DNA of 64,000 nucleotides from Agromyces bracchium (GTDB taxonomy: Bacteria; Actinomycetota; Actinomycetes; Actinomycetales; Microbacteriaceae), in NCBI RefSeq assembly GCF_009709675.1, contig NZ_WMLB01000018.1, forward strand, positions 1 through 64,000, given 5' to 3'. Positions 2,736 to 29,339 of this stretch are shown here, one piece after another (the first letter of the stretch is position 1; each line of letters opens with the position of its first letter). The notes under the pieces were generated by a model that saw only the letters and a program-made list of their open reading frames with translations, was not told the DNA's origin and did no database searches. Both the position numbers and the translations under genes were made by a program.

Positions 2736-4172
2736 ATGGCCACCACCCTCATCTCCGGCGGCACCGTCGTCAGCGCCACCGGCCGCGCCGCGGCCGACGT
2801 GCTCGTCGACGGCGAGAAGATCGTCGCCGTCCTGCAGCCCGGCAGCGAACTGCTGGGCACGGATGTCGCGGCATCCGTCGACCGCGTCGTCGACGCCACC
2901 GGCAAGTACGTCATCCCCGGCGGCATCGACGCCCACACCCACATGCAGCTGCCGTTCGGCGGCACCGAGGCGTCCGATACGTTCGAGTCGGGCACCATCG
3001 CCGCCGCCCACGGCGGCACGACCTCGATCATCGACTTCGCCGTGCAGACCTACGGCCAGCGCATCGAAGACGGGTTGGCCGCCTGGCACGAGAAGGCCGG
3101 CGGCAACTGCGCGATCGACTACGGCTTCCACCAGATCGTGGGTGACGTCAACGAGGCCTCGATCGAGGCCATGAAGAAGCTGCCCGACGAGGGGGTCTCG
3201 AGCTTCAAGCTGTTCATGGCCTACCCGGGCGTCTTCTACTCGGATGACGCGCAGATCCTGAAGGCCATGCAGGTCTCGCGCGACACCGGCATGCTCACGA
3301 TGATGCACGCCGAGAACGGCCCGGCGATCGACGTGCTCGCCCAGCAACTCGTCGACCAGGGGAAGACCGACCCGTACTACCACGGCATCGCCCGCGCCTG
3401 GGAGATGGAGGAGGAGGCGACGCACCGCGCGATCATGCTCGCCAAGCTCACGGGCGCACCGCTCTACGTCGTGCACGTGTCGGCCAAGCAGGCCGTCGAG
3501 CAGCTCGCCTGGGCGCGCGACAAGGGCCAGAACGTCTACGGCGAGACCTGCCCGCAGTACCTCTACCTCTCGCTCGAGGACCAGCTCGGCGCGAGGAGCG
3601 ACGAGTGGGGCGCGTTCGAGGGCGCCAAGTGGGTCTGCTCGACGCCGCTCCGCAGCCGCGCCGAGGGCCACCAGGACTCGATGTGGCAGGCGCTGCGCAC
3701 GAACGACCTGCAGATGGTCTCGACCGACCACTGCCCGTTCTGCATGAAGGACCAGAAGGAGCTCGGCCTCGGCGACTTCCGCAAGATCCCGAACGGCATC
3801 GGCTCGATCGAGCACCGCATGGACCTCATGTACCAGGGCGTCGTGACCGGCGAGATCACGCTCGAGCGGTGGGTCGAGCTCACCTCGACGACGCCCGCGC
3901 GCATGTTCGGCCTCTACGGCACCAAGGGCGTCATCCAGCCCGGCGCCGACGCCGACATCGTCGTCTACGACCCGAACGGCCACACGTCGATCGGCCTCGA
4001 CAAGACGCACCACATGAACATGGACTACTCGGCGTGGGAGGGCTACGAGATCGACGGCAAGGTCGACACGGTGATGAGCCGCGGCAAGGTCGTCGTCGAG
4101 GACGACGCCTACGTCGGCGCCAAGGGCGACGGTCGCTACCTCAAGCGCGGCCTGAGCCAGTACCTGATCTGA
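2736..4172 (+). CDS. hydA: Dihydropyrimidinase (D-hydantoinase)
   Basis: 478 aa, the usual size. It is a cyclic amidohydrolase of the amidohydrolase superfamily that opens dihydrouracil or dihydrothymine to N-carbamoyl-beta-amino acids. The binuclear metal site is visible: GGIDAHTHM (His67, His69), the carboxylated lysine Lys158 in SSFKLFMAYPG, HAEN (His191), VVHVSAKQA (about His247), and STDHCPF (catalytic/metal Asp). The AHTHMQLPFGGT and CPQYLYL motifs separate it from dihydroorotase and allantoinase. The gene sits between beta-ureidopropionase and the LLM oxidoreductase and has a strong Shine-Dalgarno (GAAGGAAGGAG). Confidence 0.93.
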   Translation: MATTLISGGTVVSATGRAAADVLVDGEKIVAVLQPGSELLGTDVAASVDRVVDATGKYVIPGGIDAHTHMQLPFGGTEASDTFESGTIAAAHGGTTSIIDFAVQTYGQRIEDGLAAWHEKAGGNCAIDYGFHQIVGDVNEASIEAMKKLPDEGVSSFKLFMAYPGVFYSDDAQILKAMQVSRDTGMLTMMHAENGPAIDVLAQQLVDQGKTDPYYHGIARAWEMEEEATHRAIMLAKLTGAPLYVVHVSAKQAVEQLAWARDKGQNVYGETCPQYLYLSLEDQLGARSDEWGAFEGAKWVCSTPLRSRAEGHQDSMWQALRTNDLQMVSTDHCPFCMKDQKELGLGDFRKIPNGIGSIEHRMDLMYQGVVTGEITLERWVELTSTTPARMFGLYGTKGVIQPGADADIVVYDPNGHTSIGLDKTHHMNMDYSAWEGYEIDGKVDTVMSRGKVVVEDDAYVGAKGDGRYLKRGLSQYLI

Positions 4173-7234: not shown

Positions 7235-8106
7235 CGAGTGCCGCACCCGAGCGCGTCGAGACCACGCCGCCGCCCGCGGCGGACCCGACGATCGCGATGC
7301 CCGGGCTCGCGGCATCCGCTGCCCCGCGCCGCCGCGCGGCCGGCGACGGCCCGCTCGCCCGCTTCGCGAAGCTCGTGCTGCCGCCCGTCGCGCTGTTCAT
7401 CGTGCTCGTGCTGCTCGCCGAGCTCGTCGTGGTCGCCGCCGGCATCCCGCCGTTCGTGCTCGCGAGTCCCTCCGCGATCCTCGACCAGCTCGTGCAGTAC
7501 GCCCCGCAGGTGCTCGCCGCAACGCTCGCGACCGGGCTGAACGCGCTCATCGGCCTCGTGATCGGCGCGGTCATCGGCGTGCTGCTCGCGATCGCGGCAT
7601 CCGTCGGCAGGCCCGTCGACGGCATGCTCGCGCCGGTCGTCGCCGCGGTGGCGGTGGTGCCGATCGTCGCCCTCGCGCCGGTGTTCTACACGATGTTCGG
7701 CTCGACCTCCGAGGTCGCGCGCATCCTCATCGCCTCGATCGCCGCGTTCGTGCCGGTCTTCCTCAACACCCTCCGCGGCCTCCGCCAGGTGCGGCCGGTG
7801 CACCGCGACCTCATGAAGTCGTACGCGGCGACGCCGTCGCAGCTCACGCGGCTCGTCACGATCCCATCGGCGCTGCCCCACTTCTTCACGGGCCTCCGCA
7901 TCGCCTCGTCGCTCGCCGTGATCTCCGCGCTCGTCGCCGAGTACTTCGGCGGCCCGCGCCAGGGGCTCGGCTCGGCGATCACGACCGCCGCCGCGTCGAG
8001 CGCGTACGCCCGCGCGTGGGCGTTCGTCATCGGCGCCATCCTGCTCGGCCTCGTCTTCTTCGTCCTCACCAGCCTGATCGAGAGGATCGCCTCGCGCCAC
8101 CGATGA
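7231..8106 (+). CDS. ABC transporter permease, second subunit
   Basis: 291 aa, a paralogue of the permease at 5301 with the same family fold. It has a Pro/Ala-rich cytoplasmic head, about six membrane helices (first FAKLVLPPVALFIVLVLLAE) and an EAA-type loop (TLRGLRQVRPVHRDLMKSYA). Heteromeric permease pairs are usual for thiamine-precursor and pyrimidine-type importers with NMT1/THI5 binding proteins. It overlaps the ATPase gene by 4 bp (ATGA). Confidence 0.9.
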   Translation: MTSAAPERVETTPPPAADPTIAMPGLAASAAPRRRAAGDGPLARFAKLVLPPVALFIVLVLLAELVVVAAGIPPFVLASPSAILDQLVQYAPQVLAATLATGLNALIGLVIGAVIGVLLAIAASVGRPVDGMLAPVVAAVAVVPIVALAPVFYTMFGSTSEVARILIASIAAFVPVFLNTLRGLRQVRPVHRDLMKSYAATPSQLTRLVTIPSALPHFFTGLRIASSLAVISALVAEYFGGPRQGLGSAITTAAASSAYARAWAFVIGAILLGLVFFVLTSLIERIASRHR

Positions 8107-8231
8107 CCTCGGACCCGGCCCGAACCCGGGACCCCGCCAACGCCTCGCCGGCCGACGCCGTCCGGCCCCAGCCACCGGCACCGCCGGTCGGATCCCGCAC
8201 CACGAGCACCACCACCAAGAGAGGAATGCAC

Positions 8232-9374
8232 ATGAAGCGCAACCGGATCCTCGCGGGCGCGGCGGCAGCAGCCGCGACCGCGCTCGTGCTCGCCGGCTGC
8301 TCCGGCGGGGGCAGCGACTCGGGCGACGGCGGAGACACCGCCGACGGCGAGCTCACACCCGTGACCCTGCAGCTGCAGTGGCTCACGCAGGCCCAGTTCG
8401 GCGGGTACTACCTCGCCGAGGCGAACGGCTACTGGGAGGAGCTCGGCCTCGACGTCGAGATCATCCCGGGTGCGGTCGACATCGTCCCGCAGGACGTGTT
8501 GGCCGCCGGCGACGTCGACTTCGCGATCGCGTGGGTGCCGAAGGCGCTCGCGTCGATCGAGGCGGGGGCGAACATCACGAACATCGCGCAGGTCTTCGAG
8601 CGCAGCGGCACGCTGCAGGTCGCCTGGGCCGACAGCGGCATCGAGGGCCCGGAGGACCTCTCGGACAAGCAGATCGGCAGCTGGGGCTTCGGCAACGAGT
8701 GGGAGCTCTTCGCGGGCCTCACCGAGGTCGATGCGTCGGGCTACACCATCGTGCAGCAGAACTTCGACATGAACGCGCTGCTCAACAAGGAGATCGACGC
8801 CGCGCAGGCGATGACCTACAACGAGTACGCGCAGCTGCTCGAGGCCGTGAACCCCGAGACGGGGGAGCTCTACCAGCCCGAGGACTTCTCGGTCATCGAC
8901 TGGAACGAGGTCGGCACGGCCATGCTCCAGGATGCGATCTGGGCGAACTCCGACCGCCTCGCGGACGACCCCGAGTACGCCGAGACCGCGGTCAAGCTCA
9001 TCCAGGGCGCGATCCTCGGCTGGATCGACCAGCGCGACGACCCGCAGGCCGCGGCCGACGCGGTCACGGCCGCCGGTTCGACGCTCGGCACGAGCCACCA
9101 GCTCTGGATGGCCAACGAGATCAACAAGCTGATCTGGCCGTCGTCGAGCGGCATCGGCCACATCAACGAGGACCAGTGGGACGCCACCGTCGAGATGGCC
9201 CTCGCCACCAAGAACCAGGACGGCGCGCAGGTCATCACGACCGACCCGCCGGAGGGTTCGTACACCAACGAGTACGTCGACGAGGCCATCGCGAACCTCG
9301 AGGCCGACGGCGTCGACGTGATGGGCGAGTCCTACGAGCCCATCGAGGTCACCCTCACCGAGGGCGGCAACTAG
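8232..9374 (+). CDS. ABC substrate-binding lipoprotein, NMT1/THI5-like
   Basis: 380 aa. A lipoprotein signal peptide ends at the lipobox LVLAGC (Cys23), followed by a Gly/Ser/Asp linker. The mature part begins VTLQLQWLTQAQFGGYYLAEANGYW, the hallmark opening of NMT1/THI5 (SBP_bac_9/ThiY-like) proteins. These bind hydroxymethylpyrimidine, riboflavin or pyrimidines. In this operon a pyrimidine, dihydropyrimidine or hydantoin ligand is the best inference. The start at 8232 is chosen because AGAGAGGA lies 7-10 nt upstream. The ATG two codons earlier is possible. Confidence 0.9.
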   Translation: MKRNRILAGAAAAAATALVLAGCSGGGSDSGDGGDTADGELTPVTLQLQWLTQAQFGGYYLAEANGYWEELGLDVEIIPGAVDIVPQDVLAAGDVDFAIAWVPKALASIEAGANITNIAQVFERSGTLQVAWADSGIEGPEDLSDKQIGSWGFGNEWELFAGLTEVDASGYTIVQQNFDMNALLNKEIDAAQAMTYNEYAQLLEAVNPETGELYQPEDFSVIDWNEVGTAMLQDAIWANSDRLADDPEYAETAVKLIQGAILGWIDQRDDPQAAADAVTAAGSTLGTSHQLWMANEINKLIWPSSSGIGHINEDQWDATVEMALATKNQDGAQVITTDPPEGSYTNEYVDEAIANLEADGVDVMGESYEPIEVTLTEGGN

Positions 9375-9384
9375 TGGCACCTCC

Positions 9385-9471
9385 GGTGGTCGAGTAGGCG
9401 CGCAGCGCCGTATCGAGACCCGTGCGGGATCTCGATACGCGTCCGGCCCCGCCGGGCGCTACTCGATCACC
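9385..9471. repeat. Palindromic element, copy 4
   Basis: GGTGGTCGAGTAGGCGCGCAGCGCCGTATCGAGACCC followed by GGATCTCGATACGCGTCCGGC..GGGCGCTACTCGATCACC. It sits between the binding-protein gene and the aminotransferase gene and could act as a partial terminator or RNA-processing hairpin. Confidence 0.9.
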
Positions 9472-9508
9472 GGGCCGGGTGCATCATTGAAGAAAGGCGA
9501 CGACGCTG

Positions 9509-10828
9509 ATGACCGAGAACCTCACCGCCGACCTCGACGCGCTCGCGCGCGAGCTCGACGCCGAACACGTCTTCCACTCCTGGTCGGCGCAGGGCAGCCC
9601 CCCGCAGCTCGTCGTCGCGAGCGGGCGCGGCACGAAGGTCTGGGACCACTCCGGTCGCGAGTACCTCGACTTCTCGAGCCAGCTCGTCAACGTCAACATC
9701 GGCCACCAGCACCCCGCGGTCGTCTCGGCGATCCGCGAGCAGGCCGAGCTCCTGACCACGATCGGCCCGCCGACCGTGAACCTCGCCCGCGGCGAGGCCG
9801 CGAAGCGCATCACCGACCGTGCGCCCGAGGGCATGTCGAAGGTGTTCTTCACCAACGGCGGCGCCGATGCGAACGAGAACGCGATCCGGATGGCGCGCCT
9901 GCACACCGGCCGCGACAAGGTGCTCTCGACGTACCGCTCGTACCACGGCAACACCGGCGCCGCGATCGTGTCGACGGGCGACTGGCGTCGCATCCCGAAC
10001 GAGTTCGCGCGCGGACACGTGCACTTCTTCGGGCCCTTCCTCTACCGCTCCGAGTTCTGGGCGACGACGCCCGAGGAGGAGTCGGAGCGCGCCCTTCGCC
10101 ACCTGCGGCGCGTGATCGAGGCCGAGGGCCCGGCGACGATCGCCGCCGTGCTGCTCGAGACCGTGCCCGGCACCGCCGGCGTGCTTGTGCCGCCGCCCGG
10201 CTACCTCGCGGGCGTGCGCGAGCTCTGCGACCGGCACGGCATCATGCTGATCCTCGACGAGGTCATGTGCGGCTTCGGCCGGACCGGGCGCTGGTTCGCG
10301 TTCGACGGCTACGACGTGAAGCCCGACCTCATCAGCTTCGCGAAGGGCGTGAACTCGGGCTACGTGCCCGTGGGCGGCGTCGTCATCTCCGACGAGATCG
10401 CCGCCGACTTCGACGAGAAGGTGTTCCCCGGCGGGCTCACCTACTCGGGCCACCCGCTGGCGATGGCCTCGATCGTCGGCGCGCTCGACGCCATGGAGTC
10501 GGAGGGCATCGTGGACCACGCGCGCCGCGTCGGCGCCGAGGCGATCGCCCCCGCCCTCACCGAGCTCGCCGAGAAGCACGCCGTGATCGGCGAGGTGCGC
10601 GGCGAGGGCGTCTTCTGGGCGCTCGACCTCGTCGCCGACCCCGAGACGCGCGAGCCGCTGCCCGCGGCCGAGGTCGGCCGCATCCAGGGCGCGCTCGTCG
10701 AGCGCGGCCTGCTGCCGTTCGTCGCCGAGAACCGCATCCACGTCGTGCCGCCGTGCGTCGTGACGGCCGAGGAGGTCGAGCAGGCCACCGCGATCTACGA
10801 CGAGGTGCTCGGCACCGTCGCCGTGTGA
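9509..10828 (+). CDS. Class-III aminotransferase (beta-alanine type)
   Basis: 439 aa, omega-amino-acid:pyruvate aminotransferase family. PLP features: GGADANENAIRMAR, YHGNTG, LILDEVMCGFGRTG (Asp250) and the Schiff-base lysine Lys279 in DLISFAKGVNSGY. Expected role: transfer of the amino group of beta-alanine (or 3-aminoisobutyrate) to an acceptor, giving malonate semialdehyde (or methylmalonate semialdehyde) for the next enzyme. The position downstream of beta-ureidopropionase and directly upstream of the semialdehyde dehydrogenase supports this. The amino acceptor cannot be read from the sequence. Confidence 0.88.
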   Translation: MTENLTADLDALARELDAEHVFHSWSAQGSPPQLVVASGRGTKVWDHSGREYLDFSSQLVNVNIGHQHPAVVSAIREQAELLTTIGPPTVNLARGEAAKRITDRAPEGMSKVFFTNGGADANENAIRMARLHTGRDKVLSTYRSYHGNTGAAIVSTGDWRRIPNEFARGHVHFFGPFLYRSEFWATTPEEESERALRHLRRVIEAEGPATIAAVLLETVPGTAGVLVPPPGYLAGVRELCDRHGIMLILDEVMCGFGRTGRWFAFDGYDVKPDLISFAKGVNSGYVPVGGVVISDEIAADFDEKVFPGGLTYSGHPLAMASIVGALDAMESEGIVDHARRVGAEAIAPALTELAEKHAVIGEVRGEGVFWALDLVADPETREPLPAAEVGRIQGALVERGLLPFVAENRIHVVPPCVVTAEEVEQATAIYDEVLGTVAV

Positions 10829-18923: not shown

Positions 18924-19052
18924 GTCGCGCGTCGCGGGGCCGTCAGGGCTCCGAGCAGTGCCGCCGTGCGGGGGAGGGACACCCCGCAGGGCGGCCCTTC
19001 GCATGTCCCGGACGCGGGGAGGACCCCCTCGACATGGACTCCCCGCCGGGAT

Positions 19053-19058
19053 TACCGT
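19053..19058 (+). promoter_or_regulatory. -10 hexamer TACCGT, first ThrE gene
   Basis: TACCGT lies 66 nt upstream of the ATG at 19125. Unlike the leaderless genes here, this would give a leader of about 60 nt with a GGAGG ribosome-binding site. Confidence 0.45.
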
Positions 19059-19124
19059 GACCGCACCACCGGGGCCCGGACGCCCGCCCACATGATGCCC
19101 CGGCACGACCGGAGGAACGAGCGG

Positions 19125-20528
19125 ATGCCCATCACCCCCACGCCCCCGCCATCGGCAGAGGCCGCACCGACGTCGGAGGACCCGGCACTGCTCAGGGCGT
19201 TCCTGCTGGGCATCGCGGAGGGCCTCACGGCCTCCGACGAGACCACGGACCGGATCCGAGCCGAGGTCGTCGAGGTCGCCGACGCGTACGGACTCCACGA
19301 CGTGGACGTCGTCGTGCTGCCGACCATCGCCATCGTCCAGACCGGTCGCGCCGAGTCCGCCCGGCTCGCGCTCACCTCGGTCCGTGCGTCGTTCCGGTTC
19401 GACCAGATCGCGGCGATGGCCCGCCTCGTCCGCTCGGCGAAGTCCGCCGAGATCGAGCCGGCCGACGGCATCCGTCGCCTGAACGAGATCGGCGCCATGC
19501 CGCCGTCCCGCCACTGGTTCATGCGCACGCTCGGGCACGCGCTGCTCGTCGCGGGCCTCGCGCTGCTGCTCGCCCCGAGCTGGCAGGCCGTGGTCGTCGG
19601 CTTCGGCCTCGGCGCGATCGTCGGAATCGCCAAGCTGACCCGGTCGAGGACGCTCGCGCTCATCCTCCCGGTCGCCGCGGCCTTCGTCTGCGCGCTCATC
19701 GTCTTCCTCCTCGCGCCCGTCGTCGCGATCGGCGATCCGCTTCGGCTGCTCATCGCGCCGCTCGCGACCTTCCTGCCCGGAGCCATGCTCACGACCGGCG
19801 TGCGCGAACTGGCCGCCGGTCAGATGGTGGCGGGCTCCTCACGGCTCGGAGCGGGCGTCGTCCAACTGGCGCTGCTCGCCCTCGGCATCCTCGCCGCGGG
19901 CACCGTGATCGGCGTCGGCGAGGATGAGTATGTGCCCCGAGAGGTCCAGCAGACGCTGCCCTGGTGGGTCGCCGGCATCGGCCTTGCGCTCTACGGGCTG
20001 GGCGTCTACCTGCACTACGCAGCGCCCGGCCGCTCCTTCGGGTGGGTGCTGCTCGCGCTGGTCGTCGCGTACGCCGCCCAGCAGTTGGGCGCGCTGGTGC
20101 TCAGCGCGCCGACGAGCGGGTTCATCGGTGCGCTCGCCGCCACGCCGCTCGTGCTGTGGATCGAGGACCTCCGTCGGGGCGCGGTGCCGTCGCAGCTCAC
20201 GTTCACCCCCGCGTTCTGGATCCTCGTGCCGGGCGCCGCGAGCCTCGTCGGGGTCACCGAGGGCGCCGTCGCGCAGTCGGCAGGCATCGACGACGTCACG
20301 ACCGCCTTCGTCGCAGTCATGTCGATCGCGCTCGGCGTCTTCATCGGATCGGCGCTCTACCGCTTCCTCCGGCGCAGTGCGGCGGAGATCGCGGACTTCC
20401 ACGTGGACCTGCCTGCGATGCTGGGGACGGCGGACCGGTCGCCCGGCACCGGCGTCGGAGTCGCCGACGCGGCGGCGCGCGACCGTGAACCCGAGCCCGA
20501 CCCGAAGCCCACCGGTCCCGAAGGCTGA
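19125..20528 (+). CDS. ThrE-type threonine/serine exporter, paralogue 1
   Basis: 467 aa. The N-terminal soluble ThrE domain (about residues 20-160, ending DGIRRLNEIGAMPP) is followed by roughly ten membrane helices in two blocks (DUF1212-like and ThrE_2-like). LLIAPLATFLPGAMLTTGVREL and LTFTPAFWILVPGAASLVGVTE are the conserved membrane motifs. Corynebacterium ThrE exports threonine and serine, and the same is inferred here. The start at 19125 has GGAGG 9 nt upstream. The C-terminal tail is Pro/Glu/Asp-rich. Confidence 0.87.
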   Translation: MPITPTPPPSAEAAPTSEDPALLRAFLLGIAEGLTASDETTDRIRAEVVEVADAYGLHDVDVVVLPTIAIVQTGRAESARLALTSVRASFRFDQIAAMARLVRSAKSAEIEPADGIRRLNEIGAMPPSRHWFMRTLGHALLVAGLALLLAPSWQAVVVGFGLGAIVGIAKLTRSRTLALILPVAAAFVCALIVFLLAPVVAIGDPLRLLIAPLATFLPGAMLTTGVRELAAGQMVAGSSRLGAGVVQLALLALGILAAGTVIGVGEDEYVPREVQQTLPWWVAGIGLALYGLGVYLHYAAPGRSFGWVLLALVVAYAAQQLGALVLSAPTSGFIGALAATPLVLWIEDLRRGAVPSQLTFTPAFWILVPGAASLVGVTEGAVAQSAGIDDVTTAFVAVMSIALGVFIGSALYRFLRRSAAEIADFHVDLPAMLGTADRSPGTGVGVADAAARDREPEPDPKPTGPEG

Positions 20529-20648: not shown

Positions 20649-22055
20649 ATGTCCGACGTCGACGAGCGCGCCGTCCTCCGTCGCTTCCTCCTCGGCCTCG
20701 CCGAGGGGATGAACGCCGCGGGCGAGGCGGTCGACCGCATCAACGACACGGTGGACGCCGTGGCCCGCGCCTACGGGCGGGACGACACCGACTTCGTGGT
20801 GCTGCCGACGGTGATCCTCGTCCAGGTCGGAGGTGCGGAGGAGGGCCGAGTTGCGATCCGGTCGGTCCGGGCGAACTTCCGCTTCGACCAGATCGCCGCG
20901 CTGTACCGGCTGATCGAGGAGGCCCGACGGGCGGCGGTGGCCCCGGTCGAGGGCATCCGCCGCCTGAACGAGATCGGTGCGATGCATCCGAGGCACGGAT
21001 GGCTCGTCCGCACGCTCGGGCACGCCCTCCTCACCACCGGACTCGCCCTCCTCCTCGCACCGACCATCGAGGGCGCGGTGGTCGCGTTCGCGCTGGGCGC
21101 CTTCGTCGGGCTCGCCAAGCTCGTGCGGTCGCCGACGCTCCAGCTCGTGTTCCCGGTGTTCGCGGCCTTCGCGTGCGCGCTCAGCGTCTTCCTCCTAGCG
21201 CAGTACATCGAGATCGGCGATCCGATCCGCCTGCTCATCGCGCCGCTGGCGACCTTCCTCCCTGGCGGGGTGCTGACGACGGCGACGATGGAGCTCGCCG
21301 CCGGGCAGATGATCGCAGGGGCCGCCCGATTGGTGTTCGGCATGGTCCAGCTCGCGCTCCTCTCCTTCGGGATCCTCGCCGCGGGCACGGTCGTAGGCGT
21401 CTCCAGCGCCACGTACGTGCCCCTCGAGCCGTCGTCCGGACTCGCGTGGTGGGTCGCACCGGTCGGCGTCGTACTGTTCGCGATCGGGAACCACCTGCAC
21501 TTCTCCTCGCCGCCGTCGACGTTCGGCTGGGTGCTGCTCGCGGTCGGCGTGGCCTACGCCGGACAGGTAGCGGGCGCCGCGCTCGTGGGCGCGACGGTGA
21601 GCGGCTTCATCGGCGCGCTCGCGATGACCCCGGTCGTGCTGTGGATCGCGAGCCTGCGGCGCGGAGCGCCGTCGCAGCTGACCTTCCTCCCCGCGTTCTG
21701 GATCCTGGTCCCGGGCGCGGCCGGACTCGTCGGACTGACGGAGGCCGTCGGCACGGCGGCCGGGCTCGAGGACTTCGCGACGGCGCTGACCGCGGTCATG
21801 TCGATCGCGCTCGGCGTGCTCATCGGCACGGCGCTCTACCGCGTCGTGCACCACGGCGCCGAGGAGATCGCGCAGTTCCACGTCGACATGCCCGCGGCCC
21901 TGCAGGACGAGGACGCCCCGCTGTGGGCGCGCTTCGTCCCGGGGATGCCGCGGTCGTTCTGGGGCGGCGGGCGGAGGCGGCGTGCGCGCCCCGGCGAGGT
22001 CGCCGGGGCGGTTCCCGAGACATCCGCACGTTCCTCTCAGGCGGTGGAGTCTTAG
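20649..22055 (+). CDS. ThrE-type threonine/serine exporter, paralogue 2
   Basis: 468 aa and clearly paralogous to the preceding gene along its whole length. Shared blocks include IRLLIAPLATFLPGG, GFIGALA.TP.VLWI, LPAFWILVPGAAGLVGLTE and MSIALGVLIGTALYR. The N-terminal soluble domain is VDRINDTVDAVARAYG..DTDFVVLPT. Divergence is greatest in the linkers and the basic C terminus (SFWGGGRRRRARPGE). The pair looks like an old tandem duplication, possibly with different substrates. Its stop codon is part of the pyrE -10 hexamer. Confidence 0.87.
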   Translation: MSDVDERAVLRRFLLGLAEGMNAAGEAVDRINDTVDAVARAYGRDDTDFVVLPTVILVQVGGAEEGRVAIRSVRANFRFDQIAALYRLIEEARRAAVAPVEGIRRLNEIGAMHPRHGWLVRTLGHALLTTGLALLLAPTIEGAVVAFALGAFVGLAKLVRSPTLQLVFPVFAAFACALSVFLLAQYIEIGDPIRLLIAPLATFLPGGVLTTATMELAAGQMIAGAARLVFGMVQLALLSFGILAAGTVVGVSSATYVPLEPSSGLAWWVAPVGVVLFAIGNHLHFSSPPSTFGWVLLAVGVAYAGQVAGAALVGATVSGFIGALAMTPVVLWIASLRRGAPSQLTFLPAFWILVPGAAGLVGLTEAVGTAAGLEDFATALTAVMSIALGVLIGTALYRVVHHGAEEIAQFHVDMPAALQDEDAPLWARFVPGMPRSFWGGGRRRRARPGEVAGAVPETSARSSQAVES

Positions 22056-22064: not shown

Positions 22065-22634
22065 GTGACTTCCCGGAATCCCCAGTCCGCCGAGGCCCGC
22101 CGACAGCTCATCGAGTTCATCTCGAGCGACGCGGTGTTCCACGGCGACTTCACGCTGACCAGCGGCAAGAAGGCGTCATACTACGTCGACCTCCGCAAGG
22201 TGAGCCTCGACCATCGCGTCGCGCCGCTCATCGGCCAGGTGATGCTCGACCTCATCGCCGACGTCCCGGACGTCGTCGCCGTCGGCGGCATGACGATGGG
22301 CGCCGACCCCATCGCGACCGCCGTGCTGCACCAGGGCGCCGCGCGCGGCCTCGCGTACGACGCGTTCGTCGTCCGCAAGGAGCCCAAGGACCACGGCCGC
22401 GGCAAGCAGGTCGAGGGGCCGGATGTCGCGGGCAAGCGCGTCATCGTGCTGGAGGACACCTCGACCACGGGCGGTTCGCCGCTCAAGGCGATCGAGGCGC
22501 TCCGCGCCGTCGGCGCCGAGATCGCGGCCGTCGCGGTCGTCGTCGACCGCGACACCGGCGCACGCGAGGTCATCGAAGCCGCGGGGGTCCCCTACCTCGC
22601 GGCCATCGGCTTGAAGGATCTGGGACTGTCATGA
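22065..22634 (+). CDS. pyrE: Orotate phosphoribosyltransferase
   Basis: 189 aa, the usual size for actinobacterial PyrE. It makes orotidine monophosphate from orotate and PRPP in de novo UMP synthesis. The PRPP-binding loop is RVIVLEDTSTTGGSPLKAIE (about 126-145), and TSGKKASYYVDLRKVSL (about 27-43) holds the catalytic lysines. It starts at GTG. It is the head of a tightly coupled run of five genes, overlapping the next by 4 bp. Confidence 0.93.
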   Translation: MTSRNPQSAEARRQLIEFISSDAVFHGDFTLTSGKKASYYVDLRKVSLDHRVAPLIGQVMLDLIADVPDVVAVGGMTMGADPIATAVLHQGAARGLAYDAFVVRKEPKDHGRGKQVEGPDVAGKRVIVLEDTSTTGGSPLKAIEALRAVGAEIAAVAVVVDRDTGAREVIEAAGVPYLAAIGLKDLGLS

Positions 22635-25633
22635 ACGAACGCGACGGACGCTTCGGCGCGAACGGATTCGACGACGACACCGACTGGCTCATGAGCCAGC
22701 TCGGCAGCGGCCGTCGACCCGATCTCGAGGGCCGTCAGGCCCCGCAGCCGCCCGTCGCACCCGAGGCCGAGGCGCCACGCGTCGAGCCCGCGTCGCCGTC
22801 GCGCCCCCGCCGTCGCAGCGAGGAGTCGCTCGACTGGTTCTCGGTCGCCGAGCCCGCGGCGTCCGATGACGCGCCGACGCGAGCGCTCCCCGTCGTGGGC
22901 GAGCCGATCGAACCGACCGTGTCGGGGCGCGTGGACGCGCCGCCGGCCTGGGACCAGCCGACCTCGAATCCGCCGGCGTGGAACCCGCCGGCCTGGAACC
23001 AGCCGGCCTGGACCAACCCGCCCGCCGAGCGGCCCCGGATCCCCGAGCCGCCGGTCGATGACCGGCTGACGTCGGTCGAGCCGCCCGTCGGCGGCATCGT
23101 GCCGCCCGCGTTCGCGCGGCAGCCCGAGCCGCCGCACGCTCCGCCCGGGCCGGTCACCCCGCCCGCGAACTTCGCGCTGACCTGGGGCGAGTCGCCGGAG
23201 CCCCAGTCGCTCGACACGGAAGCGGGGCTGCGCGCCGCCTTCCGGCAGCTCGCCGACCCGTCGAACACGCCGCCCCGCGTCCGCGAGACCGAGGCCCGGC
23301 CGGAGCCGGGGCCGGAGCAGCCCGAGGCGGGATCGCCGTTCGAGGGATTCACGCCACCGCCGGTCGCTCGCCGCTCGTTCACCCCGGTGACGCCGGCGCC
23401 GGGATCACCCGACGACTTCGCGGACGAGCTGTGGTCGGCGCTGCACGAGGACGAGCAGCCGACGGAGACCGAGCCGGCCGCCGACGGGTACGACCACGCG
23501 TCGTACGACGATCGACCGGCGTTCGACGAGCCCGTCGAGCGCGGTGCGTACGACGATCGCGGTGCCTACGCCGAGCAGCGCGCCTACGCCGAGCAGAGCG
23601 CGTACGACCGCGCGGCGGCCTACGACCGCGCCGGATACGACGGGGCCGGCTACGCGCAGCCGGGCTACGACCAGGGCGCCTACGACCCGACCGGCTACGA
23701 GCAGCCGGGCTCCGATCAGGGCTGGGCGGATGGCGCCGGCCACGCGGACCCGGTCGGTCCGGCGGTGGGCGCGGGCCAGGGCGACTTCGGACTCGACGGG
23801 TACGTGCAGGACTTCGCCGCGCGGGGTGGCTCGTACGACGGGGACGGCGACGCCCGGGGGTACGGCGACGGACTCGACGCCCAGGGCTACGACTGGGAGG
23901 GCTACGACCAGGACGGCTACGACCGCGACGGGTACGACCGGCAGGGCTACACGCGGCCGGCATACGATGCAGCCGGTCACCGCGCGAACGGCGCGGACGA
24001 CGGCCGAGGCGACGGCGACGACGAGACCCGGCCCGGTCCGTTCGACGGCGCGGCGTTCCCCACCGAGGGGTACGGGAACGACGCGTACGGGAACGACGCG
24101 GACGGATTCGGCCCGGACGCCTACGCCGACACCGGCGACTACGGCGCCGACCGGTTCGGCGCGCACGACGAGGTGGCGGCGCACGACGACGGATACGACC
24201 TGCGCGAGCTGTGGCGCGAGAGCGACGAGGCCGAGCAGGCGAACGGCGCATGGTCCGACGAGCCGACCGACTGGCGCGAGGACGTCGGCCAGCCGGCGGC
24301 CGACGCGGCTGACGACGTGCGCTGGTACGCCGACGACCTCGCCGACCGTCGACGTGCCCCCGAGGCCGCCCAGCCGTCAGCCGACGAGCGGTCCGAGGCC
24401 GACCCGTGGAACGCCGACGAGTCGCCGCGCGCGCGGGAGTTCGCGCAGTCCGGCTACCTCTGGAACCTGACCCCGGACCCCGAGGGTCGCGACCCGAAGG
24501 TCCCGGTCGAGGAGTCCGGCGACGACGAGACGCCCGGTCCGCGTCGCGGCGCCGCGACGCCCGCCGTCCCAGGCACCGTCGACGACGACCCGTTCGGCCT
24601 CGGCGCGCCCGACGATCGGGTCGACGACCGCCAGGCGTACGACGACCGCCGGGCCTTCGACGACCAGCCGGCGCTCGACGACGGACCGGCCCACGACGAC
24701 CGGCCCGCGTTCGACGACCCCTGGGCCGCGTACGACGTGGACGAGCGCACGACCGAGCGCCCCGAGCGCGGCCGGCCCGAGTCGAACGGCGCCGGCGACG
24801 ACGGCCTCGCCGCGCTGTTCGGCGGCGCCGGCTTCGGCGCGACCGGCCCGATGTCGGTGGTCGACGCATCCGAGCAGGCCGCGCTCGACCGGTCGCCGGC
24901 TCGCGAGTCGGGCTACGGATACGAGTCCCCCGCCGCCGACCCCTTCGGCCGTGACGACCGCGGCGGATGGGACGACGGGTACGGTGCCGCCCGAGCGACC
25001 CCGCCCCGCCCCGGCGACGACGATCGGGGCGGATACCGGGCGACGCCCGCCGCGCGCACCGACGACGACGCGACCGGCCGCTCGCCGGTCAAGGTCCTGA
25101 CCTGGGTGGCCGGAGGCCTCGCGCTCGTCGTGCTCATCGTCGCCGTCGTGGCCTTCGGCACGCGGTTCCTCGCGCCGAGCGACGCCGGCACGGCCGCGCC
25201 CGTCGCGACGGAGGAACCCGTCGCGGCGCCGACCGCGCCCCAGCCGGCTGGCGTCCACTCGTGGGAGGCGCTGTTCGGCACCGAGTGCCTCGAACCGTTC
25301 GAGTCTCCGTGGGCCGAGGAGTTCACGGTGGTCGACTGCGCGAGCCCGCACACGGCGCAGCTCGCCTACCGCGGCACGTTCGCGGGCGACGAGGCCGCCG
25401 AGTTCCCGGGTGAGGAGGCGCTCGCGGCGCAGTCGCAGGAGCTCTGCGCCGCCGAGGGCGTCATCGACCCGGCCGCGGCCGGAGGCGTCGGCGAACTGCA
25501 GATGGTGACGGCGTTCCCCGTGACCGCGGAGCAGTGGGACGCGGGACAGCGCAGCTACTACTGCTTCGTCGAGCAGGTGAGCGGCGAGCCGCTGACGGTG
25601 AGCCTCGCCGGGGCCGGGCCCGCCGCCGCGTGA
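22631..25633 (+). CDS. Large Tyr/Asp-rich membrane protein, septum-formation-like domain
   Basis: 1000 aa. Residues 1-820 are low-complexity, Pro/Ala-rich then strongly acidic. A run at about 97-135 repeats Trp-Asn-x-Pro. From about 286 to 500 come dozens of short Tyr-Asp/Gly-Tyr units (GYDQGAYDPTGYEQPG, YDQDGYDRDGYDRQGY). One membrane helix (about 822-843, WVAGGLALVVLIVAVVAF) leads to a 150-residue outer domain with four cysteines (about 885, 905, 938, 977; FGTECLEP, VVDCASPHTAQ, SQELCAAE, SYYCFVEQ), resembling the septum-formation domain family. Orientation is therefore a long cytoplasmic disordered arm and a small exported domain. The function is unknown. It overlaps pyrE and the ribokinase gene by 4 bp each. 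Confidence 0.8.
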   Translation: MNERDGRFGANGFDDDTDWLMSQLGSGRRPDLEGRQAPQPPVAPEAEAPRVEPASPSRPRRRSEESLDWFSVAEPAASDDAPTRALPVVGEPIEPTVSGRVDAPPAWDQPTSNPPAWNPPAWNQPAWTNPPAERPRIPEPPVDDRLTSVEPPVGGIVPPAFARQPEPPHAPPGPVTPPANFALTWGESPEPQSLDTEAGLRAAFRQLADPSNTPPRVRETEARPEPGPEQPEAGSPFEGFTPPPVARRSFTPVTPAPGSPDDFADELWSALHEDEQPTETEPAADGYDHASYDDRPAFDEPVERGAYDDRGAYAEQRAYAEQSAYDRAAAYDRAGYDGAGYAQPGYDQGAYDPTGYEQPGSDQGWADGAGHADPVGPAVGAGQGDFGLDGYVQDFAARGGSYDGDGDARGYGDGLDAQGYDWEGYDQDGYDRDGYDRQGYTRPAYDAAGHRANGADDGRGDGDDETRPGPFDGAAFPTEGYGNDAYGNDADGFGPDAYADTGDYGADRFGAHDEVAAHDDGYDLRELWRESDEAEQANGAWSDEPTDWREDVGQPAADAADDVRWYADDLADRRRAPEAAQPSADERSEADPWNADESPRAREFAQSGYLWNLTPDPEGRDPKVPVEESGDDETPGPRRGAATPAVPGTVDDDPFGLGAPDDRVDDRQAYDDRRAFDDQPALDDGPAHDDRPAFDDPWAAYDVDERTTERPERGRPESNGAGDDGLAALFGGAGFGATGPMSVVDASEQAALDRSPARESGYGYESPAADPFGRDDRGGWDDGYGAARATPPRPGDDDRGGYRATPAARTDDDATGRSPVKVLTWVAGGLALVVLIVAVVAFGTRFLAPSDAGTAAPVATEEPVAAPTAPQPAGVHSWEALFGTECLEPFESPWAEEFTVVDCASPHTAQLAYRGTFAGDEAAEFPGEEALAAQSQELCAAEGVIDPAAAGGVGELQMVTAFPVTAEQWDAGQRSYYCFVEQVSGEPLTVSLAGAGPAAA

Positions 25634-26568
25634 GCCGCCTCGTCGTCCTCGGGTCGGTGAACGTCGACGCGACGAGCTACGTCGACGCGTTCCCGGAGCC
25701 CGGCGAGACGATCCATTCGCACGACTATCGGATGTCGCTCGGCGGCAAGGGCGCGAACCAGGCGATCGCCGCGCACCTGTGCGGTGCCGACGTCGCCTTC
25801 GTCGCGCGCCTCGGCGACGACGCCGCGGCCGAGGTCGCGCGCGCCGCGTTCGCGCGGTTCGGGCTCCCGGCCGAGGGGGTCGCGACCGTTCCGGGCAGCC
25901 CGACCGGCGTCGCCCAGATCACCGTGGCCGCGACGGGGGAGAACACCATCGTCGTCACGGCCGGGGCGAACGCCGCAGTCGGGCCCGACGTCGTCGCCGC
26001 CGAAGCCGAGCGCATCGCGGCCGCCGACGTCGTGCTCACGCAGGGCGAACTCCCCGTGGCGACCATCGAGGCGCTCGCGCGCGCGTGCGATGACGCCGCC
26101 ACGCGATTCGTGCTGAACCTCGCGCCCCCGGTCGGCGTCACCGCGGACGCCACGTCGGTCGCCGACCCGCTCGTCGTCAACGTGCACGAGGCGCGCGCGG
26201 TCGGCATCGGCCGAACGCTGGCCGACGACGCCGACGTCGACGCGTGGCGGGATGCCGCGGCATCCGTCGTCGGCGACCTCGCTCGCTCGGTCGTCGTGAC
26301 GCTCGGTGCACGCGGTGCGGTCGCGGCGGACGCCGACGGTGCGTGGGCCGTCGCGGCGCCCGAGGTCGACGCGGTCGACACGACGGGCGCGGGGGATGCC
26401 GCGACCGGCGCCCTGGCCGCGATGCTCGCCGAGGGGCGCGCCCTTCCCGATGCGGTGCGCGTCGCCGTGGCCGCGGGCGCGATCGCCGTGGGCTCGCGCG
26501 GCACCGTGGACTCGTACGCCGGGCGCGCCGACGTGCTCGCGCTGGCCGACCGGTTGGAGCTCGGATGA
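25630..26568 (+). CDS. rbsK: Ribokinase, PfkB family
   Basis: 312 aa. The N-terminal motif is MSLGGKGANQAIAAHLCGA (about 35-53), and the C-terminal PfkB signature is VDTTGAGDAATGALAAML with the catalytic aspartate. It phosphorylates ribose to ribose-5-phosphate with ATP. The next gene, a nucleoside hydrolase, releases ribose, so the two form a salvage step. It starts at a GTG overlapping the previous stop. Confidence 0.9.
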   Translation: MSRLVVLGSVNVDATSYVDAFPEPGETIHSHDYRMSLGGKGANQAIAAHLCGADVAFVARLGDDAAAEVARAAFARFGLPAEGVATVPGSPTGVAQITVAATGENTIVVTAGANAAVGPDVVAAEAERIAAADVVLTQGELPVATIEALARACDDAATRFVLNLAPPVGVTADATSVADPLVVNVHEARAVGIGRTLADDADVDAWRDAAASVVGDLARSVVVTLGARGAVAADADGAWAVAAPEVDAVDTTGAGDAATGALAAMLAEGRALPDAVRVAVAAGAIAVGSRGTVDSYAGRADVLALADRLELG

Positions 26569-27512
26569 CCGTTCCCGTGATCGTCGACTGCGACCCCGGT
26601 CACGACGACGTCTTCGCCCTCTGGTTCGCCGCGGGGCATCCGTCGCTCGAGCTGCTCGCGGTGACCACGGTCGGCGGCAACGTCCCGCTCGAGCACACGA
26701 GCCGCAACGCCCGCGTCGCCCTGTCGGTCGCCGGCGTCGTCGACGTCCCGGTCGCGGCCGGCGCCCGCGGGCCGCTCGCCCGCGAGCTCTCGACGGCCGA
26801 GTGGATCCACGGCGAGAACGGGCTCGGCGGCCCCGAGCTGCCCGACCCCGACGCCGGCCCGACGCCCGTGCCGCTCGACCCGCGCAGCGCGACGGAGCTC
26901 ATCGCCGACACGCTCGCCGAGGCATCCGAGCCCGTGGCGATCATCGCGACCGGACCCATCACGAACGTCGCCGTCCTGCTCCGCGACCGGCCCGACCTCG
27001 CACCGCGGATCCGGGAGGTCGTCTGGATGGGCGGCTCGACCGAACGCGGCAACGCGACGCCGTACGCCGAGTTCAACGCGTGGGTCGACCCGGAGGCGCT
27101 GGACCTCGTTCTGCAGAGCGGCATCCGCTTCACCATGGTGGGGCTGAACGTCACGCACCGGGCACTCGTGACGAGTCGCGTGCGCGAGCGCCTCGCCGCG
27201 ATCGGCACCCGCACCGCGGGCTTCGGCGACGAGCTGCTCGAGTTCTTCTGCCGCACCAACGACGAGGTGTTCGGCATGCCCGACGGGCCGCTGCACGACC
27301 CGGTCGCGGTCGCCGTGCTCGCCGACCCCGACGCCGTCGAGATCGTGCGCACGCGGCTCGACGTCGAGCTGATCGGGTCGGAGACCGTCGGCGCGACGAG
27401 CGTCGACCTCGACGGCATGCTCGCCCGCGAGCCGAACGCCTTCGTCGCGGTCGGGCTCGACGTCGAGCGGTTCTGGGCGGATGTCGAGGCCGCCGTGGCA
27501 CGGTTGGCCTGA
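26565..27512 (+). CDS. Inosine-uridine-preferring nucleoside hydrolase
   Basis: 315 aa. The calcium-binding N-terminal signature DCDPGHDD is at about residues 8-15. NVTHRALV and GPLHDPVAVAVL (with the C-terminal metal Asp) complete the active site. It cleaves ribonucleosides to base and ribose in the cytoplasm. It is coupled by 4 bp to ribokinase and sits in the pyrE run, which joins pyrimidine synthesis and nucleoside recycling. Confidence 0.92.
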   Translation: MTVPVIVDCDPGHDDVFALWFAAGHPSLELLAVTTVGGNVPLEHTSRNARVALSVAGVVDVPVAAGARGPLARELSTAEWIHGENGLGGPELPDPDAGPTPVPLDPRSATELIADTLAEASEPVAIIATGPITNVAVLLRDRPDLAPRIREVVWMGGSTERGNATPYAEFNAWVDPEALDLVLQSGIRFTMVGLNVTHRALVTSRVRERLAAIGTRTAGFGDELLEFFCRTNDEVFGMPDGPLHDPVAVAVLADPDAVEIVRTRLDVELIGSETVGATSVDLDGMLAREPNAFVAVGLDVERFWADVEAAVARLA

Positions 27513-28541: not shown

Positions 28542-29339
28542 TTACAGGTCGCTCTCGACCGGCTCGGCCGTGACGAGCTCGAACACGCCGTCGAGGATCT
28601 CGTCGGGCCGGAAGGGGTACTTCTCGATCTCGCGCTGGTCGCTGATGCCCGTGAGCACGAGCACGGTGTGCAGTCCGGCCTCGATGCCCGCCACGATGTC
28701 GGTGTCCATGCGGTCGCCGATCATCGCGGTGTGCTCGGAGTGCGCGCCGATCTTGTTCAGCGCAGACCGGAACATCATCGGGTTCGGCTTGCCGACGACG
28801 TAGGGCTCCTTGCCGGTCGCCTTCGTGATGAGGGCGGCGATCGCCCCGGTCGCGGGCAACGGTCCGTCGGCGCTCGGCCCCGTGGCATCCGGGTTGGTGA
28901 CGATGAACCGGGCGCCCGCGCCGATCAGCCGGATCGCCTTGGTGATCGCATCGAAGGAGTAGTTCCGGGTCTCGCCGACGACCACGAAGTCGGGGTCGGT
29001 CTCGGTCATGATGAAGCCGGCCTCGTGCAGCGCGGTGAGGATGCCGGCCTCCCCGATCACGAACGCCGACCCCCCGGGCACCTGCTGCTTGAGGAAGTCC
29101 GCGGTGGCGAGCGCCGAGGTCCAGATGCGCTCCTCGGGCACGTTCAGGCCCGAGGCGCGGAGCCTCGCCGAGAGGTCGCGGGCCGTGAAGATCGAGTTGT
29201 TCGTGAGCACGAGGTAGGGCGTGCCCGAGTCCTCCCACTGCTGCAGCAGGTCGGCCGCGCCGGGGAGGGCGTGGTTCTCGTGCACGAGCACGCCGTCCAT
29301 GTCGGTGAGCCAGGCCTCGACCTCTTCACGCTTCGCCAT
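28542..29339 (-). CDS. HAD-IIA family phosphatase (NagD-like)
   Basis: 265 aa. Motif I is LTDMDGVLVHE (nucleophile Asp13 and acid/base Asp15), motif II VLTNNSIFT, motif III includes VGKPNP, and motif IV is MIGDRMDTDIVAGIEAG. The large C2 cap lies between motifs II and III. NagD-type proteins dephosphorylate sugar phosphates, nucleotides or phosphoglycolate. The substrate here is unknown. The start lies 6 nt after a TAGGCT hexamer. Confidence 0.9.
   Translation of the reverse strand: MAKREEVEAWLTDMDGVLVHENHALPGAADLLQQWEDSGTPYLVLTNNSIFTARDLSARLRASGLNVPEERIWTSALATADFLKQQVPGGSAFVIGEAGILTALHEAGFIMTETDPDFVVVGETRNYSFDAITKAIRLIGAGARFIVTNPDATGPSADGPLPATGAIAALITKATGKEPYVVGKPNPMMFRSALNKIGAHSEHTAMIGDRMDTDIVAGIEAGLHTVLVLTGISDQREIEKYPFRPDEILDGVFELVTAEPVESDL

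Follow-up and report, generated by a model that had tools for sequence, protein, structure and literature searches.

What does a 1000-residue membrane protein, most of which is predicted to be disordered, do immediately behind a gene of pyrimidine synthesis? We investigated this question for a gene, here called X, in a 64,000-nucleotide stretch of Agromyces bracchium DNA (positions 1 to 64,000 of contig NZ_WMLB01000018.1; hereafter the window), for which a first-pass annotation had been made from the letters. The strongest findings were the pairing of X with pyrE across the genera examined and a conserved series of short motifs in the tail of X. We propose that X acts in Microbacteriaceae as a multivalent docking scaffold anchored in the membrane and that the tyrosine (Tyr) array in its tail is a lineage-specific extra; we give this reading a probability of about 0.5. 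The gene itself, the predicted disorder, the helix, the outer domain, the conservation and order of the motifs, and the adjacency to pyrE were established by computation. The relevant features are as follows.

22065–22634, + strand: pyrE, orotate phosphoribosyltransferase (TIGR00336, 137.4 bits against a cut-off of 106.8).
22631–25633, + strand: X, an open frame for a 1000-residue membrane protein, whose relatives were traced via the outer domain.
25085–25168, + strand: single membrane helix of X (residues 819–846), from hydrophobicity and the AlphaFold2 model.
25208–25630, + strand: outer four-cysteine domain of X (Septum_form, matching the N-terminal half of that model).

The sequence bore out the 1000-residue frame read in the first-pass annotation and its overlap with pyrE, the ATG start codon of X sharing 4 nucleotides with the pyrE stop. 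The single helix and the four-cysteine Septum_form domain, also proposed there, were recovered by the model and by PF13845, respectively.

The outer domain had a single match in its own genome. Matches, weak ones included, were found in 78 of 120 relatives, and strong ones in 55 of 60 Agromyces genomes; in a profile search of the family Microbacteriaceae, 110 of 150 genomes matched, representing 61 of 85 genera. We examined 100 loci, 51 from Agromyces and 49 from other genera (48 genus codes and one named Labedella). Besides the window there were 54 strong Agromyces matches, of which 51 were fetched; those omitted were on contigs of 7.2 and 6.2 kb (G041 and G052) or matched from base 2388 (G022). 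For the other genera, one locus was taken for each of 40 genera from the stronger profile matches, and the pyrE count excludes weaker matches. Weak or second outer-domain matches were not counted as orthologues. The operon position behind pyrE was conserved: pyrE lay on the same strand as X and upstream of it in all 98 loci with enough flank, the other two being cut by contig ends. Of 49 Agromyces loci, 47 had overlapping genes, and the start of X was at most 38 nucleotides from the pyrE stop in 48/49 Agromyces loci and 47/49 loci of other genera (95/98 in total); these gap lengths are approximate, as a script picked the orthologue starts close to the pyrE stop. Because the genes overlap, synthesis of X probably keeps pace with that of PyrE, and the two may be translationally coupled. 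That pyrE and an envelope protein are paired in some 49 genera is a strong association, and the link it provides is purely genomic. No description of this pairing or of the motif series was found among the open-access papers listed.

The conserved motifs in the tail of X are as follows; counts refer to 49 Agromyces orthologues and, where given, to 37 tails of at least 150 residues from other genera.

22682–22702, + strand: DWLMSQL (residues 18–24), within a predicted helix at 17–24; 44/49 Agromyces, 24/37 other genera.
22829–22843, + strand: LDWFS (residues 67–71); 39/49.
22877–22891, + strand: TRALP (residues 83–87); 33/49.
23171–23188, + strand: FALTWG (residues 181–186); 35/49.
23219–23254, + strand: LRAAFRQL, in a predicted helix at 197–208; conserved columns with a local predicted local distance difference test (pLDDT) value of 72–76; outside the count of ten motifs below.
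23363–23386, + strand: VARxSFTP (residues 245–252); 35/49.
23423–23443, + strand: DELWSAL (residues 265–271), with a predicted helix at 263–268; 39/49.
24455–24496, + strand: YLWNLTPDPxxxDP (residues 609–622); core in 47/49 Agromyces, 21/37 other genera.
24806–24823, + strand: LAALFG (residues 726–731); 22/49.

Ten motifs, many of them centred on Trp, were each found in 22–47 of the 49 Agromyces proteins, and where present they kept one order in 48 of the 49. Two of the ten reached other genera. DWLxxQL (motif 1) and FxWNLTPDP (motif 2) each occurred in 68 of 86 tails of at least 150 residues, against means of 0.065 and 0.66 proteins of 86, respectively, after shuffling at constant composition. 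Across 23 aligned full-length proteins, W19, L20, E65, P617, D621, and P622 were invariant at a mean column identity of 29%. PFPAFA and VDDLLA were absent from the clade of seven to which X belongs; of the remaining 42 Agromyces, 29 had PFPAFA and 32 had VDDLLA. The Tyr array occupies the stretch between the motifs that neighbour these positions.

Residues 1–818 of X were mostly predicted to be disordered, and the helix at 819–846 was the only membrane helix in the AlphaFold2 model. AlphaFold2 (23 orthologues) gave pLDDT values below 50 for 764 of the 1000 residues, including all of 302–597, and the full-length model was of low confidence overall (mean pLDDT 46.8, predicted template modelling score (pTM) 0.39). 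Short helices were predicted on motifs at 17–24, 197–208, and 263–268, and just N-terminal of FxWNLTPDP at 599–606. The first-pass annotation had described about 820 disordered, Tyr-dense residues; the disorder mostly held, but the Tyr density was confined to about 287–522, and the tail carried conserved motifs rather than being featureless. The ratio of nonsynonymous to synonymous substitution rates (dN/dS), determined against the two nearest relatives, was 0.25–0.29 in the Pro-rich part, 0.35–0.36 in the Tyr part, and 0.34–0.35 in the remaining tail, values that the alignment of repeats may depress, and 0.05–0.15 in the outer domain. These values indicate that the Tyr array is under purifying selection, no stronger than that on other spacers. 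The 820-residue tail (22631–25090) contained 0.1% Lys yet 8.5% Arg, and the orthologues were similar (median Lys 0.24% in 49 Agromyces).

X appears to be oriented with its N-terminus inside and its C-terminus outside the cell. An outside N-terminus is not favoured, because no signal peptide was seen by eye, the tail is free of Cys, and the Cys domain lies at the opposite end. The four Cys of the outer domain (886, 903, 939, and 978) were kept in all 42 aligned orthologous domains and may form disulfides. X passed the gathering cut-off of PF13845 (25 bits) with 27.5 bits for the whole protein and 32.8 bits for the domain alone, covering model positions 3–109 of 227, the N-terminal half. Against the other half, three DUF4190-type neighbours in another family scored 21.3, 23.6, and 25.1 bits; the first two values are under the cut-off. 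The domain modelled alone gave a pLDDT of 92.4 and a pTM of 0.87; in the full-length model, residues 849–906, including the first two Cys, had pLDDT below 50 and the folded C-terminus began at about 907. A search of the PDB by sequence gave one weak match for the outer domain, to an antibody chain (E 0.09). By fold, none of eight Foldseek matches reached E 0.001, and a second comparison gave a best Z of 2.4 among 116 chains. The missing PDB relative does not demonstrate a new fold.

In the proposed docking scaffold, the disordered cytoplasmic tail would present ordered short motifs, many centred on Trp or Phe, that may dock one or more cytoplasmic partners. The single helix would tie these motifs to the membrane, and the outer domain, to which we assign a putative envelope role, may attach to or sense the envelope. 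The spacers between motifs vary in both length and composition, and in some Agromyces lineages part of the tail, usually the segment bounded by DELWSAL and FxWNLTPDP, has become filled with a Tyr array, which may contribute self-association. The following evidence supports this reading: pyrE is kept upstream while ThrE, ribokinase, and nucleoside hydrolase genes come and go; the motifs recur in a fixed order with invariant residues despite low identity; and short helices are predicted on the motifs, with dN/dS of 0.25–0.36 in disordered parts. A protein that may work in a similar way is GlpR, described as a disordered membrane receptor that binds division and growth partners in the corynebacterial divisome (PMC10522489). 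Both are membrane proteins with disordered cytoplasmic regions, a likeness in working alone, as the sequences were not compared; GlpR has three predicted membrane helices and X has one (819–846). The conserved motifs would provide concrete baits for finding a partner.

Several observations weigh against a docking scaffold. Motif 1 and motif 2 were each missing from 18 of the 86 tails of at least 150 residues, and tails were shorter than 150 residues in 11 of 97 orthologues, with a minimum of 12 by the cut used. Docking via these motifs therefore cannot be the function everywhere. The set of 97 leaves out L064 and L075 (contig ends), L094 (distant), and L069 and L135, whose frames stop short of pyrE, perhaps through a frameshift or stop. 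The regular expressions for the motifs were written after the alignment had been viewed and from the same sequences, and the shuffling was done without control for common descent. In its own genome (G000), the DNA pattern for DWLxxQL and that for the second motif each matched at the X gene only, but backward control patterns matched three and two places in that genome, so that a single genomic match per motif is at chance level by count. In four of five other genomes, the second pattern matched six places, two of them (in G148 and G060) immediately before the X outer domain and four elsewhere. Furthermore, 40 of the 150 family genomes gave no match and 5 of the 60 genus genomes no strong match. 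The gap to pyrE was 114–879 nucleotides in 3 of 98 loci (L069, L090, and L135), and the adjacency may reflect promoter convenience.

The first-pass annotation had proposed a membrane-tethered condensate built on Tyr repeats. The part of the tail concerned is the following.

23489–24196, + strand: Tyr array (residues 287–522), Tyr mostly every 5 residues; lineage-specific.

Residues 271–500 contained 24 Tyr (10.4%), against an expectation of 4.6 if Tyr is assumed to make up 2% (binomial P 7e-11), and residues 1–270 contained none. Tyr pairs 5 residues apart numbered 12 in residues 271–530 against a shuffle mean of 2.5, a count equalled in none of 2000 shuffles. Regular aromatic spacing within disorder, the mark of a sticker-spacer sequence, was present in X and confined to some lineages. 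Among the 97 orthologues, 11 had tails with more than 2% Tyr, and all 11 were from Agromyces. In 9 of these 11 the 5- or 6-residue spacing was above all 1000 shuffles even though the fillers differed (YDRDG, YAEQP, YDDRSG). In L074 the spacing was mainly 10 (33/1000 shuffles reached the count at 5), and in L086 it was unclear (98/1000 reached it at 6). The slot between DELWSAL and FxWNLTPDP was richer in Tyr than either flank in the 8 of the 11 in which both motifs were recognised; in L063 the densest stretch was C-terminal of FxWNLTPDP, and in L086 the slot held 14 Tyr and the part after it 13, nearly equal numbers. On the tree, the Tyr-rich state required at least three changes at the 2% line and two to six at other lines. 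A single Tyr-rich clade was rejected for all eleven (P value of the approximately unbiased test 0.009) and only marginally so for ten (0.045), with groups that were defined once the tree had been viewed and a bootstrap that was not fully settled. Gain of Tyr arrays more than once is likely rather than certain.

On one reading, the Tyr array would be a homotypic sticker region and X would form a condensate beneath the membrane, with the motifs recruiting clients; the recurrent spacing, the common slot, and the likely repeated gain of arrays speak for it. A precedent by analogy is PYCO1, a diatom pyrenoid linker that binds Rubisco, in which Tyr motifs self-associate and Trp motifs bind the client (PMC10288592). 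X shares disordered Tyr and Trp repeats with PYCO1, a likeness in working for which sequences were not compared; the available portion of the source mentions no Septum_form domain or membrane helix in PYCO1, and X has both. The resemblances to PYCO1 and GlpR are analogies, not kinship. The condensate is weakened by the rarity of the arrays, as Tyr made up 2% or less of the tail in 86 of 97 orthologues. The array is also no more constrained than other disordered parts, the tail is acidic (21.4% D+E against 8.8% K+R), and L063, L074, and L086 depart from the common spacing or position. We consider this explanation unlikely for X in general; condensation may be a lineage-specific extra. The first-pass annotation had suggested comparison across relatives and had counted a lack of conserved Tyr-rich composition against its proposal: the composition was not conserved, although the 5- to 6-residue spacing recurred among the Tyr-rich minority.

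A distinctly unlikely elaboration combines both elements: the Trp and Phe motifs would bind a client, and the Tyr arrays, repeatedly gained at a spacing of 5–6 and mostly in the same slot, would tune self-association. X would then be a membrane-anchored counterpart of a pyrenoid linker with natural on and off versions, its expression tied to pyrimidine synthesis. If this were true, related species would carry on and off versions of a sub-membrane condensate. Whichever reading applies, close Agromyces with and without Tyr arrays are a natural experiment on the effect of aromatic stickers in such a membrane protein.

The long tail and the Tyr array in it might instead be largely neutral spacer, lengthened through slippage of 15–18-bp repeats, with only the helix and the outer domain of importance. 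The DNA of the Tyr part contained tandem repeats, mostly of 15–18 base pairs with 67–95% matches, the array differed even among close relatives, and tail length spanned 12–1152 residues in the 97 orthologues, 11 being under 150. Against neutrality stand the fixed motif order in 48/49 Agromyces, the two motifs shared across genera, dN/dS below 0.4 along the tail, and the recurrence of the same Tyr spacing; we regard it as improbable.

X might also be a ZipA-like division protein of the Rv3835/Cg3203 kind that anchors FtsZ, or proteins working with FtsZ, at the membrane. Divisomes commonly contain disordered tethers with one helix, and PF13845 was matched by 42/42 orthologous domains at E 0.1 or better. 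Rv3835, a Septum_form protein, is a predicted ZipA orthologue (PMC3989709, PMC7921967), but its division role is described as awaiting validation in a review (PMC3989709). The label 'septum formation' is thus an in-silico prediction, and the division link drawn in the first-pass annotation goes back to this Pfam name. The outer domain of X exceeds the cut-off of PF13845, the family of Rv3835, MSMEG_6414, and Cg3203; X differs in spanning only model positions 3–109 of 227, in sitting behind pyrE, and in its long motif-bearing tail, the comparison being with PF13845 and not directly with the named proteins. Moreover, the shared part is the outer domain and not an FtsZ-binding part, and 40 of 150 family genomes have no match. 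A division function of this kind is doubtful.

Cooperation of X and PyrE, for example a tail that holds PyrE at the membrane and feeds uridine monophosphate into envelope precursors, would fit the adjacency in 98/98 loci (overlap or near overlap in 95) and the presence of pyrE in the stretch of 4 of 11 other-family Septum_form loci, but it is very unlikely, as neighbouring genes need not have interacting products, X showed no PyrE-binding feature, the genes are on opposite strands in three other-family genomes, and pyrE was not seen nearby in 7/11. A link to mycobacterial TtfA, whose gene lies close to pyrE, was dropped without a sequence test: no title or abstract among the papers listed supported it, and Microbacteriaceae are not known to have mycolates.

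Two further genes follow downstream of X.

25630–26568, + strand: ribokinase-like PfkB kinase (PF00294), scoring under the ribokinase equivalog cut-offs.
26565–27512, + strand: IU-type nucleoside hydrolase (PF01156), next after the ribokinase-like gene.

The TGA stop codon of X shares 4 nucleotides with the GTG start of the ribokinase-like gene. The overlaps behind the coupling that had been proposed on both sides of X are present in the window, and the adjacency to pyrE is kept beyond it. Outside Agromyces, a ribokinase gene lay within 500 nucleotides downstream in 2/49 loci (33/51 in Agromyces) and a nucleoside hydrolase gene within 2000 nucleotides in at least 1/49 (at least 42/51 in Agromyces). 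ThrE was upstream in at least 35/51 Agromyces loci and 1/49 others; flanks were limited for this count and for that of the hydrolase. The ribokinase and the hydrolase thus accompany X chiefly in Agromyces, which makes the tie to nucleoside salvage a local one. Two tandem ThrE-family exporter genes (18966–20528 and 20649–22055) lie immediately upstream of pyrE in the window.

Among 11 loci from other families of the order that matched Septum_form, 4 had pyrE in the stretch fetched, and in the other 7 it was not seen. Three of the four genomes, all from one family, had it no more than about 4 kb away and on the opposite strand; in the fourth the distance was about 5 kb. An older loose association of pyrE and Septum_form is possible but not established. 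Near pyrE in L139, from another family of the order, positions 7837–10293 hold two Septum_form-like frames that enclose a third match, and a Clp-type ATPase gene comes next; one of the two frames carries DUF4190, with a Septum_form score slightly below the cut-off. In L135, a 313-residue frame without a Pfam match (2943–3884) lies between pyrE and the outer-domain frame and is perhaps the tail of X split off by a frameshift, or a separate gene. A HAD hydrolase gene (28542–29339, − strand) is convergent to the operon in the window; genes of this kind are also found close to X or pyrE in L087, L089, and L139, which suggests an old neighbourhood.

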